From contig NZ_JAHBCL010000002.1 of NCBI RefSeq assembly GCF_018390735.1, forward strand, positions 62,001-126,000: a stretch of DNA of 64,000 nucleotides. The letters run 5' to 3'. Positions 27,064-35,175 of this stretch are shown here, one piece after another (position 1 is the first letter of the stretch; each line of letters begins with the position of its first letter). Source of the DNA: Fusibacter paucivorans (GTDB lineage Bacteria; Bacillota; Clostridia; Peptostreptococcales; Acidaminobacteraceae). Made by a program: the position numbers and the translations under genes. The notes under the pieces were generated by a model, which was not told where the DNA came from, ran no database searches, and worked only from the letters and a program-made list of their open reading frames with translations.

Positions 27064-28296
27064 ATGATTTTAATTCAAAATACCAATGTCCTTACCATGC
27101 AGGGCGATGAGGTTCTAGAGAACGTTGACGTTCTGACGGATAAGGGTAAAATTATAAAATTGGTAAAACATGCACCAAATTATTCTGAAAAAGATGTGCG
27201 AATTGTCAAAGGCGAAGGGCGTTATTTAATGCCCTCGCTATTTGATGCACATGCGCATCTCAACTCAAGTGAAATGAGTTACTTGTTCATCGCCAATGGT
27301 ATTACGGGGATTCGTCATTTAAGTGGTGGCGAAATGGCCATGGCTTTTGCCGCTTCCATTGAACGTGGTGAGCATATTGGGCCTAATGTCTATGCATCCG
27401 GGCCAATATACGATGGTTCAGAGGCGATAGATAAATCACCGACATACCGATATATCGCAACAAAGGAAGAAGCGATCAAGGCGGTTGATGATACCATCGC
27501 CGAAGGTTACCGATGGGTAAAAACATACCCTGCTATTTTACCGGAACATTTGGAAGCTTTAATGGCGCACGCCCGTGAACGAGGGATTAAAGTCTGCGGC
27601 CACATGAGCTATCATGTTGATCACAAGACATTGTGCGACTGGGGTTACCACTGCTGCGAGCACAGCAGCAGTTTACCGAATGATCCGGAATCGATTGCCT
27701 ATTTAGCAGAAGCCGGCATGTGGTTTTGTCCAACACAAGTTGTCTGTGAAACGTTGCCGGATTATGTGTGGAATAGGAAGAAGCTGACGGATTTGCCGCA
27801 TTATGAGTATGTGCCGCAAAAAATTCGCGACTTTTGGGAAGCTAAAAATGAGAAAATCATCGAAGGCTATAAAAGACGTGGTATGAAACCGGACATTAAC
27901 GTCGTTATTAATCGCGGCAAAACTTTTATGGCGCATTCAAAACGCGTCATGGCAGGCAGCGACACGATGTATCCCGGTATGATTGCTGGTTTTTCACTGC
28001 ATGATGAACTCTATAAATTGGTACACCTCTATGGTCAAACCAACGGGGATGTCTTAAGGATGGCTACGGTTAATCCCGCGGCCTATATAGGGCTTTCGGA
28101 TTGCAAAGGACAAGTACGTGTAGGCTTTGATTCAGATCTGCTCTTGCTAAACGGCAACCCACTTGAAGATATCACAGCAACACAGAAAATTGAAGGTGTC
28201 ATGAAGGGTGAAACCTATTACGACAGATCTGCGCTTGATGACTTGTTAAAACGATCTCAGACGGAACCCGTTGATTTTTTTGAAAGATTGTTTTAA
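27064..28296 (+). CDS. Metal-dependent amidohydrolase (prolidase/imidazolonepropionase-like)
   Basis: A 410-residue protein with TTAGGAGCGGTC upstream. It has the small beta domain at both ends and a TIM-barrel with ligands HAH (LFDAHAHLNS), a possible carboxylated Lys (RWVKTYPAI), His (VCGHMSYH), His (CCEHSSS) and Asp (VMAGSDTMYPG), plus the C-terminal NPAAYIGLSDCKGQVRVGFDSDLLLL. Family members cleave cyclic or N-acyl amide bonds, including Xaa-Pro or aspartyl dipeptides. The context suggests action on a peptide taken up by Dpp. Confidence 0.88.
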   Translation: MILIQNTNVLTMQGDEVLENVDVLTDKGKIIKLVKHAPNYSEKDVRIVKGEGRYLMPSLFDAHAHLNSSEMSYLFIANGITGIRHLSGGEMAMAFAASIERGEHIGPNVYASGPIYDGSEAIDKSPTYRYIATKEEAIKAVDDTIAEGYRWVKTYPAILPEHLEALMAHARERGIKVCGHMSYHVDHKTLCDWGYHCCEHSSSLPNDPESIAYLAEAGMWFCPTQVVCETLPDYVWNRKKLTDLPHYEYVPQKIRDFWEAKNEKIIEGYKRRGMKPDINVVINRGKTFMAHSKRVMAGSDTMYPGMIAGFSLHDELYKLVHLYGQTNGDVLRMATVNPAAYIGLSDCKGQVRVGFDSDLLLLNGNPLEDITATQKIEGVMKGETYYDRSALDDLLKRSQTEPVDFFERLF

Positions 28297-28454: not shown

Positions 28455-28541
28455 AATTCGCAGTCATCATAAAATAAATAATTGAGACAATTGCATTATT
28501 GACAATTTCCTCAATTGACAGACTGAGTCTGACCAGTTAAA

Positions 28542-28569
28542 CATCTGCGCCAATGCGCAGATGTTTTTT
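28542..28569 (+). terminator. Rho-independent terminator
   Basis: Perfect stem CATCTGCGC / GCGCAGATG with a CAAT loop and TTTTTT tail. It ends the peptide-use operon. Confidence 0.93.
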
Positions 28570-28587
28570 GCATAAATGGGATGATAC

Positions 28588-28703
28588 GAAAATATGTCTG
28601 TAATATGGAATAATATGCCATAATATGCCTGTGCTACGCGGAATTATGCTTGTAATATACGAAAATACGCCTATAATATGTGATAATACGCTTGAAATAC
28701 GCC
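28588..28703. repeat. Degenerate short tandem repeats, about five copies
   Basis: Copies of roughly AATAYGCYTGTAATAYG are spaced about 20-25 bases apart (for example near 28590, 28642, 28662 and 28685), with a shorter, more divergent form between. The tract is non-coding and lies between a terminator and the MotA-like gene. Confidence 0.55.
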
Positions 28704-28782: not shown

Positions 28783-29226
28783 ATGATGTATTTAATTGGA
28801 ATTGGTATTTTTCTAGCTTTTGTCGTCTTTTTGACTTTTGTAGCTTCTGGTTACGCGCTCTACATTGATTTTCCAAGCGTTATCGTTATACTGGGAATGA
28901 CGATTCCGGTGTTGATGGCATCTGGACTCATAAAAGATTTTGTGAATGGCTTTAAACTGATGAATCAGCGAGAAGTGATGTTTTCTAAAATGGAAATTCA
29001 TAAAATTGTGATTGCAGTGACATTGGGGATTCGTACGATTCTGGTTTCATCGTTTTTGGGTGTACTCGCGGGCGGTATAACAATTTTGGCACAACTCTCA
29101 ACAATCGAAAGTATTTTGCCCTCTCTTTCTGTCGATTTTATCATATTATTTTATGGCCTTATTTTTATAACCATTTTATTGCCGATTCGCGCTAAAGCGG
29201 AAGCTGTGCTTAAAACGATGGATTAG
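28783..29226 (+). CDS. Miniature MotA-like membrane protein
   Basis: A 147-residue protein with TAGGAGGTAAT upstream. About four membrane spans: YIDFPSVIVILGMTIPVLMA matches the N-terminal MotA pattern (x-D-x-P-S-h-x-h-V-h-G), while VDFIILFYGLIFITILLPI matches the last MotA span and its LxxhhYGhhhhhhhLPI ending. The large cytoplasmic loop of MotA, which contacts the flagellar rotor, is missing. No MotB-like gene is adjacent. It is followed eight bases later by a membrane-bound LuxR protein that has similar spans, so the pair is probably a signalling unit rather than a motor. Confidence 0.7.
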   Translation: MMYLIGIGIFLAFVVFLTFVASGYALYIDFPSVIVILGMTIPVLMASGLIKDFVNGFKLMNQREVMFSKMEIHKIVIAVTLGIRTILVSSFLGVLAGGITILAQLSTIESILPSLSVDFIILFYGLIFITILLPIRAKAEAVLKTMD

Positions 29227-29234
29227 GTGAGCAG

Positions 29235-29894
29235 ATGCAGTTTAATCATTTGAAATGGATGGGACCGATTGTCTATTTGATCGTCGTCATCACACTTTTT
29301 AAAATAAATATTGGCATTCTGATCCAGCCATTGCCGCTGATAACAGTTTTGGGAGGCGGCGTAATTCTAGCAGCCAGCCGTAGGCGTGACAGCACTCGAT
29401 GGTTGGACGCTTTTGGCACAGGCGTGCTGTATGCGGGGGCACTAGCGAGCTTACTGCTTTTGTTATCGGCGGCATTAAGTGGTTTGAACGCGCTGGCTGA
29501 AGCATTTGTACCGGGAATCTATGCGGGTTTTGTCTATTTGATTATTCATTTTTATCAGGGCAAACCGGAAGGCGCCGTTATAAAATCGGAAGAGCCTGAA
29601 CAAACACAATTGGCAGGTGATGATCGTTCCCCAGTGAATACCTTGCGATCGGACTGGGATTCTGAACGTACTGCGACGCCGTTTTTGCTTGCTTATGCCC
29701 TGACACCTCGTGAATCACACGTAGCGCTGAAGATGATTCAAGGTATGGACAATCGCAGTATTGCAGAATCGCTTTTTATTTCAGAAGCAACCCTTAAAAA
29801 ACACGTTCAAAATATCTATCGGAAATTGGATTGCCACGACCGTCAAAGTTTTATGACGGCATACATGACGTTTATAACCGCTAAAAGGGGATAA
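29235..29894 (+). CDS. Membrane-anchored LuxR-type regulator with MotA-like N-terminal spans
   Basis: A 219-residue protein. Residues about 10-115 contain membrane segments (IVYLIVVITLF, PLPLITVLGGGVILAA, a long pair from FGTGVLYAGAL to YAGFVYLIIHFY) whose spacing and the P-S/P-L-h-x-h-x-GGG pattern recall MotA. A hydrophilic linker then leads to a LuxR/GerE helix-turn-helix (TPRESHVALKMI, then NRSIAESLFISEATLKKHVQNIYRKL) in the last 65 residues. It is therefore a predicted one-component, membrane-bound transcription factor, encoded with the preceding MotA-like protein. Confidence 0.75.
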   Translation: MQFNHLKWMGPIVYLIVVITLFKINIGILIQPLPLITVLGGGVILAASRRRDSTRWLDAFGTGVLYAGALASLLLLLSAALSGLNALAEAFVPGIYAGFVYLIIHFYQGKPEGAVIKSEEPEQTQLAGDDRSPVNTLRSDWDSERTATPFLLAYALTPRESHVALKMIQGMDNRSIAESLFISEATLKKHVQNIYRKLDCHDRQSFMTAYMTFITAKRG

Positions 29895-29984
29895 AAACGC
29901 GCGAACAGGCTGTATTAGTGAATTATAGCTTTTTCCTAATTGACTGCAACGGTGAAACGAGATACAATCTACTTAGTAAAAATG

Positions 29985-30160
29985 AATAACGCCAATATAG
30001 GTCCGCTCATTCCTTGCGGATAATAGGGAAGTCAGGTGAAATTCCTGCACAGTCCCGCTGCTGTAATAGCTGAGTCGTTTGCAAATGCCACTGTCTTCTA
30101 AAGATGGGAAGGCGCAAATAATGAAGATGCTTAAGTCAGAAGACCTGCCTGTATTGATTT
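29985..30160 (+). ncRNA. Cobalamin riboswitch (aptamer)
   Basis: Diagnostic elements are in order: GGGAA at 30026, then GTCAGGTGAAATTCCTGCAC and the conserved AGTCCCGCTGCTGTAAT core, GAGTC, GCCACTG near 30087, GGGAAGGC near 30106, GATG, and AAGTCAGAAGACCTGCC near 30133-30149. It lies upstream of the btuFCD-type genes, matching cobalamin control of B12 uptake. Confidence 0.95.
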
Positions 30161-30220
30161 GCTGAAAACTCTACGGATGATAGAGGGCAATCAAGGTCTG
30201 TTTCTTTTAGATTCTTATAA

Positions 30221-33878: not shown

Positions 33879-33942
33879 ATATGTGTTCACAAGCGTTTGT
33901 TCTTTATAGGGGTATGAAGACAAATTGAAAGGTTGGGGTGAA

Positions 33943-35175
33943 ATGAACACATATCAAATCGAAAGAAGATTTAAGAATCCTCTTGTGAGCGGCGTTATCG
34001 CCGTCCTTTTGGCGACGGTAATTGCATCGGTTTTTTGGCCGATTTGGGGGCTGATCGCTAAAAGCATTATCTCAGTGCTCGCTGCAACGGGTTTAGCGCA
34101 GTGTGAACCGGCTGCGGCGAGTGCATATATCAAAGATGTCACTGAAGGGACTTTCTTCTGGATGTCCATTAATTCTTGGATCTGGTTTACACTTATCTTT
34201 AGTAATTACGGTAAGTATGCAAAAACGCACAGTCAGCCTGCTGCCGGTTTCCGCTACAGTATCCTCGCATTTTTATCAGGTATTTTGGGCTATTTCATTC
34301 TTGTAGGTCTTATTGGCATATGGTGGAAACCGTTTAATCTAGGCATTATGCTGATGCCGAAGACAGCAGCAGAAGTTGCGCTGGCAACAGAGGGATGGGC
34401 GGCTGCAAACTTCTATGCAGTACCTGTACTCATCTGCCAAATTGCATACGTTGCACTCTTTGGCAAATGGCCATTCACGAAAGCGGGCGCACCTTGGGAT
34501 AGCTTTGGCGCTATGATGACTTCAACCGTAGCGGCACTACTTGTCTGGTTCGCCATGTTTGTGCCTTCATTTCTTAAGTTTCAGCTTGCAGGTGAAGCTG
34601 CTGTCATACAGCCAATGGGCTCGTTCCCATCGGTTTTGGCATGGTGTCAGTGTTTTATCGTCTGGTTTCTGTTTCCGGTTATTTGTACAGAAGGATATCC
34701 GGCAAAAATCTTTGCAAAAGAACAGCCGGCAAGAGGTTTTATCGGTTTTGCGATTGCCTTTGTCATGGCATTTGTCATGCGTGCTGCACTAAGAGTCGTT
34801 TTAGGACCGTTGGATTTATTAAATGGTCAGCCCGTTGACTTGGTGGTAACGTCGTTTGTACTTTCTATTATTACAGTTGGTTTGACATGGCATCATCAGT
34901 TCTTCGACTTTCCTGATAAAGAAAAGATGCCAAATGAAGTGCCGCGCGTTTTAACCAGATTGCTGATTGTTCTTGTCCTCGGGTCAATTTTCGGTGTCTT
35001 TTGGATGAAGACATACACTTATCTGCCATTTGGTGCCAATGATATGGGACTCGGGTATCCGACGCTGGGCCTTATTGCAGGTCAGTTCCTGTATATGATG
35101 CCAATGCTGTTCCTGAACACGTTCTTCGACAAATGGCCATTGACAAAAGTGGTAATGGTCAAGGAAGACAAGTAA
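33943..35175 (+). CDS. Multispan membrane protein of unknown family
   Basis: The start is ATG 33943 with a GGGGTG ribosome site; an in-frame TTG at 33925 is less likely. The 410-residue protein has about ten hydrophobic segments and no motif I recognise. Recurrent features are Trp-rich loops (FWMSINSWIWFTLIF, GIWWKPFNLGI, LFGKWPFTKAGAPWDSFGAMM) and a second FDKWPLTKV near the C-terminus, suggesting an internal duplication. It is the only gene of its transcription unit, has its own sigma-54 promoter and is followed by a strong terminator. A transporter is likely, but the substrate is unknown. Confidence 0.8.
   Translation: MNTYQIERRFKNPLVSGVIAVLLATVIASVFWPIWGLIAKSIISVLAATGLAQCEPAAASAYIKDVTEGTFFWMSINSWIWFTLIFSNYGKYAKTHSQPAAGFRYSILAFLSGILGYFILVGLIGIWWKPFNLGIMLMPKTAAEVALATEGWAAANFYAVPVLICQIAYVALFGKWPFTKAGAPWDSFGAMMTSTVAALLVWFAMFVPSFLKFQLAGEAAVIQPMGSFPSVLAWCQCFIVWFLFPVICTEGYPAKIFAKEQPARGFIGFAIAFVMAFVMRAALRVVLGPLDLLNGQPVDLVVTSFVLSIITVGLTWHHQFFDFPDKEKMPNEVPRVLTRLLIVLVLGSIFGVFWMKTYTYLPFGANDMGLGYPTLGLIAGQFLYMMPMLFLNTFFDKWPLTKVVMVKEDK

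Follow-up and report, generated by a model that had tools for sequence, protein, structure and literature searches.

A loopless MotA relative paired with a membrane-bound LuxR-type protein in Fusibacter paucivorans, a likely transmembrane transcription regulator

Two adjacent genes of Fusibacter paucivorans, located in a stretch of 64,000 nucleotides (contig NZ_JAHBCL010000002.1, positions 62,001 to 126,000; henceforth called the window), encode a small membrane protein (P1) and a membrane protein with a LuxR-type helix-turn-helix (P2). P1 is a relative of MotA stripped to four membrane helices and is not a torque stator, and the pair is likely a transmembrane transcription regulator of a MotA-fold type, no example of which was found described. 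The relation to MotA, the LuxR domain, the pairing of the genes, and the fusion of the same membrane module to another DNA-binding domain were all computed here. That P1 and P2 together make up one such regulator of two subunits, with a membrane part derived from a stator, is considered reasonably probable. The features of the locus in window coordinates are:

28539..28569, + strand: 12-bp perfect inverted repeat followed by a T-run, likely terminator of the preceding gene
28591..28700, + strand: five imperfect 16-base repeats (starts at 28591, 28622, 28643, 28664, and 28685) upstream of P1
28650..28677, + strand: promoter-like TTGTAA-16-TATAAT inside the repeat array, a consensus match only
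28783..29226, + strand: P1, 147 aa, ATG start, four membrane helices, loopless MotA-like
29235-29894, + strand: P2, whole gene, 219 aa, membrane domain and LuxR/GerE helix-turn-helix
29235..29585, + strand: P2 membrane domain, residues 1-117, four helices
29697..29849, + strand: P2 LuxR/GerE helix-turn-helix, residues 155-205

The window genome (G000) comprises 4.43 Mb in 96 contigs. P1 and P2 are encoded in the same direction with an intergenic gap of 8 bases, and P1 has a strong ribosome site (AGGAGG, 5 bases ahead of the ATG), that of P2 being weaker. The upstream gene, encoding an amidohydrolase, ends at 28296; the inverted repeat behind it was not listed by the terminator scan, and its T-run was read directly from the letters. 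Since this likely terminator (inverted repeat and T-run) ends the preceding gene, P1 and P2 seem to constitute a separate unit of two genes. Downstream of P2, a cobalamin riboswitch (29982-30166; Rfam RF00174, 120.8 bits) is followed by an operon for a substrate-binding protein, a FecCD permease, and an ABC ATPase. An earlier note on this DNA had stated that a MotB partner was missing, and this was supported, as the gene next to P1 is the LuxR-type gene and 0 of 10 flanking proteins given to Pfam matched MotB (small frames being outside this test set). One of these ten proteins (33925-35175, 416 aa, a membrane protein by eye) had no Pfam match at 1e-5. An ordinary motA is located elsewhere in the window genome (L116), and the gene behind it is motB by eye.

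As a single sequence, P1 matched the NCBIfam PomA model with an E-value of 5e-4 (residues 4-68), far under the model cut-off, and did not match Pfam MotA_ExbB. A profile of the P1 family with seven rows (A1; P1 and six relatives) was searched against PDB chains and matched PomA with an E-value of 9.1e-16, along with several MotAs. Profile blocks 3-69 and 88-137 aligned with PomA 4-69 and 151-201, i.e., with helices 1-2 and 3-4, and PomA 70-150 stood opposite profile positions 70-87 alone, which means that P1 lacks about 63 residues of this cytoplasmic loop. Both the torque-generating, rotor-contacting loop between helices 2 and 3 and the cytoplasmic tail after helix 4 are absent, and the two profile blocks agree with the earlier description of P1 as keeping the first and last spans of MotA without the rotor loop. 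Alignment of the P1 profile to five MotAs with hhalign yielded an E-value of 1.1e-15 and a score of 103. The best of 60 window-shuffled profiles, in which the hydrophobic pattern was kept, scored 32.4 and the reversed profile 18.2; chance resemblance between P1 and MotA was rejected because these controls scored far lower. Across the family, NCBIfam PomA matched 25 of the 30 P1 members and Pfam MotA_ExbB 15 of the 30 (both at E <= 0.01), the latter with a best E-value of 2.2e-11.

The AlphaFold2 model of P1, calculated from five rows, had a mean pLDDT of 75 and a pTM of 0.67. When this model was searched with Foldseek, the best 19 rows were all PomA/MotA chains, but their E-values were weak (0.013 at best, with none reaching 0.001). 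In a second structural alignment, PomA/MotA chains occupied the best ten rows (Z 10.4-13.4; next unrelated row 8.5), including 8zyv_E (Z 13.4, 124 residues, 2.5 Å) and 8gqy_A (Z 13.1, 145 residues, 3.8 Å), whereas the listed TolQ/ExbB chains reached Z 6.5-7.7. According to a warning of the aligner, Z under about 13 can be common among helical bundles, and the weight of the MotA relation is therefore placed on the sequence profiles. The refuting outcome named beforehand, i.e., no relation to MotA/ExbB/TolQ in profile and structure comparisons, did not occur (E 9.1e-16 and Z 13.4, respectively, to PomA/MotA).

P2 combines four predicted helices and a subsequent DNA-binding domain in one protein. 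The latter was identified as GerE by Pfam (residues 155-205, E 9.5e-16, 57.6 bits against a cut-off of 23.5), and GerE was present in all 17 P1 partners tested (E <= 0.01), in line with the LuxR helix-turn-helix that had been assigned to the end of P2. The P2 membrane-domain profile (14 rows) aligned with the P1 family along its length with a probability of 85.8% and a score of 39.2; the best of 60 shuffles scored 27.9, and the reversed profiles 13.0 and 13.5. Compared directly with MotA (profile-profile), the P2 membrane domain gave no match (probability 2%). It is probably a distant relative of P1, and the earlier claim of similar spans in P2 thus holds as a resemblance to P1 (86% probability) but not as a direct sequence match to MotA. 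The structure model of P2 had a low pTM of 0.43 and contained four long helices in the first 117 residues. MotA chains were absent from the best 50 Foldseek rows for P2. In the second structural alignment, the membrane part of P2 was aligned with MotA/PomA chains among the rows listed, namely with 8ucs_G (residues 4-111, Z 9.1, 107 aligned, 3.8 Å) and 9ijm_C (Z 9.0, 89 aligned, 5.9 Å), and also with 8brd_D (Z 10.2, 148 aligned over both domains), a poor fit at 8.6 Å. ExbB/TolQ chains were absent among the P2 structural matches listed, which says little.

Relatives were searched by profile or sequence in overlapping samples, i.e., 148 relatives, 391 genomes of the class, 398 of the phylum, 247 of the order, 250 of family f37, and 22 of family f31. 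The short MotA type was found in 33 genomes in all, and the locus was read in 30 of them, the loci of G172, G1032, and G1227 being outside the 30 and a second copy in G025 being outside the family counts. Within the class sample, 117 of 391 genomes matched, 10 of which had the short full-length type, and in most of the remainder, MotA-sized frames were matched in part. Matched genomes kept as the short type were 10/16 for the order, 2/7 for the phylum, 19/19 for family f37, and 3/3 for family f31. From the relatives sample, 35 of 148 matched; the 8 with full-length short frames were all within the order sample, and weak partial matches (e.g., G090, G059, G070, G072, G134, and G138) were not included in the counts.

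The pair, for which a search in other genomes had been proposed beforehand, was present in 17 of the 30 loci read, where a membrane-LuxR gene directly follows P1 at a spacing of -23 to +45 bases (based on the first start codons of the frames). This partner has four helices in 15 of the 30 loci and two helices (by eye) in 2 (L041 and L102). Six members (L044, L045, L106, L107, L110, and L111) are XRE/Cro fusions with an N-terminal helix-turn-helix and a C-terminal P1 part, and Pfam HTH_3 was detected in six of the 30 family members; L044 and L045 were recovered with a fusion-free profile at E-values of 8.6e-23 and 7.5e-22. Neither LuxR nor XRE was seen beside P1 in the other seven loci (L007, L040, L043, L086, L095, L099, and L100), L086 being ambiguous. 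At L086 (1483-2917), a 244-aa multi-helix protein without a Pfam match at E 0.01 is encoded upstream of the short MotA-like gene, and its end is helix-turn-helix-like by eye. In the reverse search with the P2 membrane profile (E <= 1e-4), 8 of 247 genomes of the order and 4 of 250 of family f37 were matched, 12/12 with an adjacent P1; lone P2s could be missed in this survey, since its profile was built from P1-adjacent proteins. The second P2 copy of G025 adjoins a P1 that is split into two frames. Loop charges agree with a location of both protein ends inside the cell (the N and C ends of P1 are predicted to be cytoplasmic), and such an orientation is compatible with XRE at the N-terminus as well as with LuxR at the C-terminus.

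In the P1 tree, partner types were grouped, with 5 changes compared to a shuffled mean of 13.5 (as low in 0 of 200). The window P1 was located in a starred set of six LuxR-paired rows, and L045 was placed apart from the other five XRE fusions; L111, L045, L086, L110, and L107 have long branches, and their placement is unsure. Distances of P1 and the P2 membrane domain were correlated with r 0.83 (14 pairs), those of P1 and the helix-turn-helix with 0.79 (partial 0.45). As P1 correlates nearly as well with the helix-turn-helix, common descent may explain the P1-P2 correlation.

Searching genome contigs with P1 alone confirmed nothing, and searching with the alignment yielded four loci in draft records (JAAYMO010000246.1, JAJGRE010000005.1, JAUQXG010000509.1 (Lutispora), and JAIUOA010000006.1), one of which is labelled Calditrichales though its proteins seem not to fit. 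A common genomic neighbourhood was not found among the loci read, where neighbours differ except for the following cases. A leucine-rich-repeat protein, possibly an extracellular input, is encoded directly upstream of the pair in L005 (1934-3028) and L006 (273-1478; Pfam for L006). Similar genes are located downstream of the orphan short MotA in L040 (2180-2869; weak SurA-like Pfam match) and L099 (2215-2907). In L131 (2144-4070; G1001:C18), the short motA, with the LuxR partner behind it, is overlapped at its start by a full-length motA, and no motB was seen by eye on this 10.4-kb contig.

Mobile or defensive modules were disfavoured. No relative was confirmed in viral contigs (45 pattern-matched stretches) or phages, and PHROGs gave only weak matches (E 0.0028 and 0.0069), namely to two uncharacterised families. 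The sole match in the plasmid collection was in a 2.6-Mb record labelled plasmid, which is probably a chromosome. For a defence system of Zorya type, PADLOC matched neither P1 nor its relative L038; for P2, two CARF3 models were matched (E 8e-9 and 9e-4) in the helix-turn-helix region only.

P1 could also be an independent small membrane protein or channel encoded beside P2, the membrane-bound regulator of the operon, without a joint complex. Six of the seven members with no DNA-binding partner seen beside them fall into a single supported clade (100/99); P1-like proteins are therefore probably able to function without P2, and the module may have other roles. This separation of P1 from P2 is nevertheless rather unlikely for the pair, given that XRE fusions join both parts in one polypeptide in 6 of 30 members, that the P2 membrane domain is a probable homologue of P1, and that P1 adjoins the P2 membrane domain in every one of the 12 genomes of the reverse search.

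A second alternative is a sensor of ion flow or proton-motive force in which the conductance of a MotA-like channel sets the activity of the LuxR domain. In PomA, T158, T185, and T186 are pore threonines lining the ion path, and the ion-carrying Asp is supplied by MotB. P1 Asp29 (at the place of PomA D31) and Tyr124 (at the place of PomA Y188) are present in 30/30 members. The three pore positions are T, T, and T in 5/5 MotAs and V, I, and L in the window P1. Across the 30 members of the P1 family, Thr/Ser occupies the T158 equivalent in 18 (12 Thr, 6 Ser) and the T185 equivalent in 20 (12 Thr, 8 Ser), and the T186 equivalent is never Thr and is Ser in one member. The MotA fold of P1 and the Thr/Ser residues at the first two positions in its relatives would suit such a sensor, but the residues of the window copy and the missing MotB neighbour speak against stator-like ion flow in it, and, judged by these residues, ion conduction by the window P1 is unlikely. 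The loss of pore threonines would argue against stator-like flow, not against some other pore in relatives. Furthermore, ordinary MotA (E <= 1e-6) was not among the matches listed in G166 and G497, which belong to the 10 class-sample genomes carrying the short type; flagella may thus be dispensable for the module. The sensing of ion flow put forward in the earlier note was thus not borne out, and we consider the ion sensor improbable. That the short MotA arose by duplication of the flagellar stator gene and is degenerating, next to an unrelated neighbour, is disfavoured and highly improbable, since the overlapping full-length motA of G1001 (no motB seen on the contig) and the broken P1 of the second G025 copy stand against intact frames across several families, the fully conserved Asp29 and Tyr124, a strong Shine-Dalgarno sequence, and identical partner order in 17/30 loci.

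The preferred reading remains that P1 and P2 form one transmembrane transcription regulator. The attachment of two unrelated DNA-binding domains to the same membrane module is a strong argument that transcription is controlled from the membrane, and the role of membrane-embedded transcription factor suggested in the earlier note is supported as the likely one by the MotA fold, GerE in 17/17 partners, and the XRE fusions. P1 and P2 would co-assemble via MotA-type helix packing into one hetero-oligomer, with both protein ends in the cytoplasm and the C-terminal LuxR helix-turn-helix of P2 on this side. A membrane or envelope signal may alter this assembly, and the altered assembly would present or hide LuxR dimers, allowing or blocking their pairing on DNA. 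Sensing of the membrane state by the pair is possible. Far more tentatively, the stator fold without torque loop and MotB might have been reused to provide transcription factors with a general module for signal input at the membrane, in which a stator-like ring of P1 and P2 (or XRE-P1) reads membrane energy or envelope state and directly switches DNA binding through two unrelated helix-turn-helix types.

The promoter of the pair itself may be one target, via the phased repeats. Start-to-start distances in the array are 31, 21, 21, and 21 bases, i.e., the repeats are helically phased, and the lag-21 match of 0.50 was reached in 0 of 2000 base shuffles. With up to two mismatches, the repeat consensus had 6 occurrences in the window, including 5 within the array (0.77 expected). 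A 20-mer of one repeat (up to three mismatches) matched a single genomic site, the one it was taken from, and a backward control pattern also occurred once. Promoter-like sites in the scanned stretch numbered 11 compared to 6.0 expected. The array is a possible operator of the pair, but no more than a lead, because a comparable array was not found upstream of any of the 11 relatives checked.

BcrR of Enterococcus is an XRE-type protein with four helices. It is described as a one-component membrane sensor of bacitracin that binds DNA and has no obvious extracellular domain (available text of PMC3968067), and the pair resembles it as a putative membrane-bound, DNA-binding sensor without such a domain. 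In Coriobacteriia, known LuxR proteins include ones with 10-12 helices, DadR of Eggerthella and its kin being such membrane-spanning LuxR regulators, three of them shown to be transcription activators (available text of PMC9734109). P2 has the same order of N-terminal membrane domain and C-terminal LuxR helix-turn-helix; unlike these single proteins, it has four (or, in two loci, two) helices and a partner gene. Transmembrane transcription regulators (ToxR, TcpP, BcrR, and others) are widespread, and some have an accessory partner protein (PMC10269533, as far as available). P2 likewise has its DNA-binding domain held at the membrane, whereas the membrane part of the pair is MotA-derived; LuxR, GerE, and MotA are not mentioned anywhere in the main text of the survey cited.

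Like MotA/PomA (PF01618 MotA_ExbB, PF20560 MotA_N), P1 has four membrane helices, D-x-P-S after helix 1, a partly kept G-T-x-x-G region in helix 3, and P and Y around helix 4, and its family shares two collinear profile blocks with them. Unlike MotA/PomA, it lacks the torque loop (about 63 residues) and the C-terminal cytoplasmic tail, no MotB was found beside it, and the pore threonines of its family are partly or wholly changed. A 2025 survey distinguishes flagellar from generic ion transporters among MotA relatives, and the generic ones (ExbB, TolQ, and AglR) have a cytoplasmic domain of two or three helices and a B partner (available text of PMC12505986). P1 belongs to the same superfamily and has a reduced cytoplasmic domain, but neither the cytoplasmic helices nor the B partner kept by these transporters were found within or beside it, and LuxR or transcription did not occur in the available text of the survey. 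Because this loopless, MotB-less branch linked to transcription factors is unlike the surveyed MotA relatives, P1 is regarded as a MotA relative and not as a stator. No description of a pair of MotA with LuxR or another helix-turn-helix protein was found in literature searched by title and abstract start, with subscription papers mostly outside the coverage, nor was an earlier description of such a loopless branch found in this literature and the available survey texts.

The cut-down clostridial MotA, which is linked to a DNA-binding domain by gene pairing or by fusion, suggests that the fold of a motor channel was reused as a membrane-bound regulator. The known roles of MotA relatives are in machines driven by ions, and the loopless branch without MotB would show that this fold can serve signalling instead of movement. 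The pair also occurs in the named strain Acetoanaerobium noterae DSL2 (L117; 20-base overlap) and could therefore be studied outside metagenomes. It would offer a small testable system for transcription control by a membrane protein without an external domain, which has been called poorly understood (available texts of PMC10269533 and PMC3968067).
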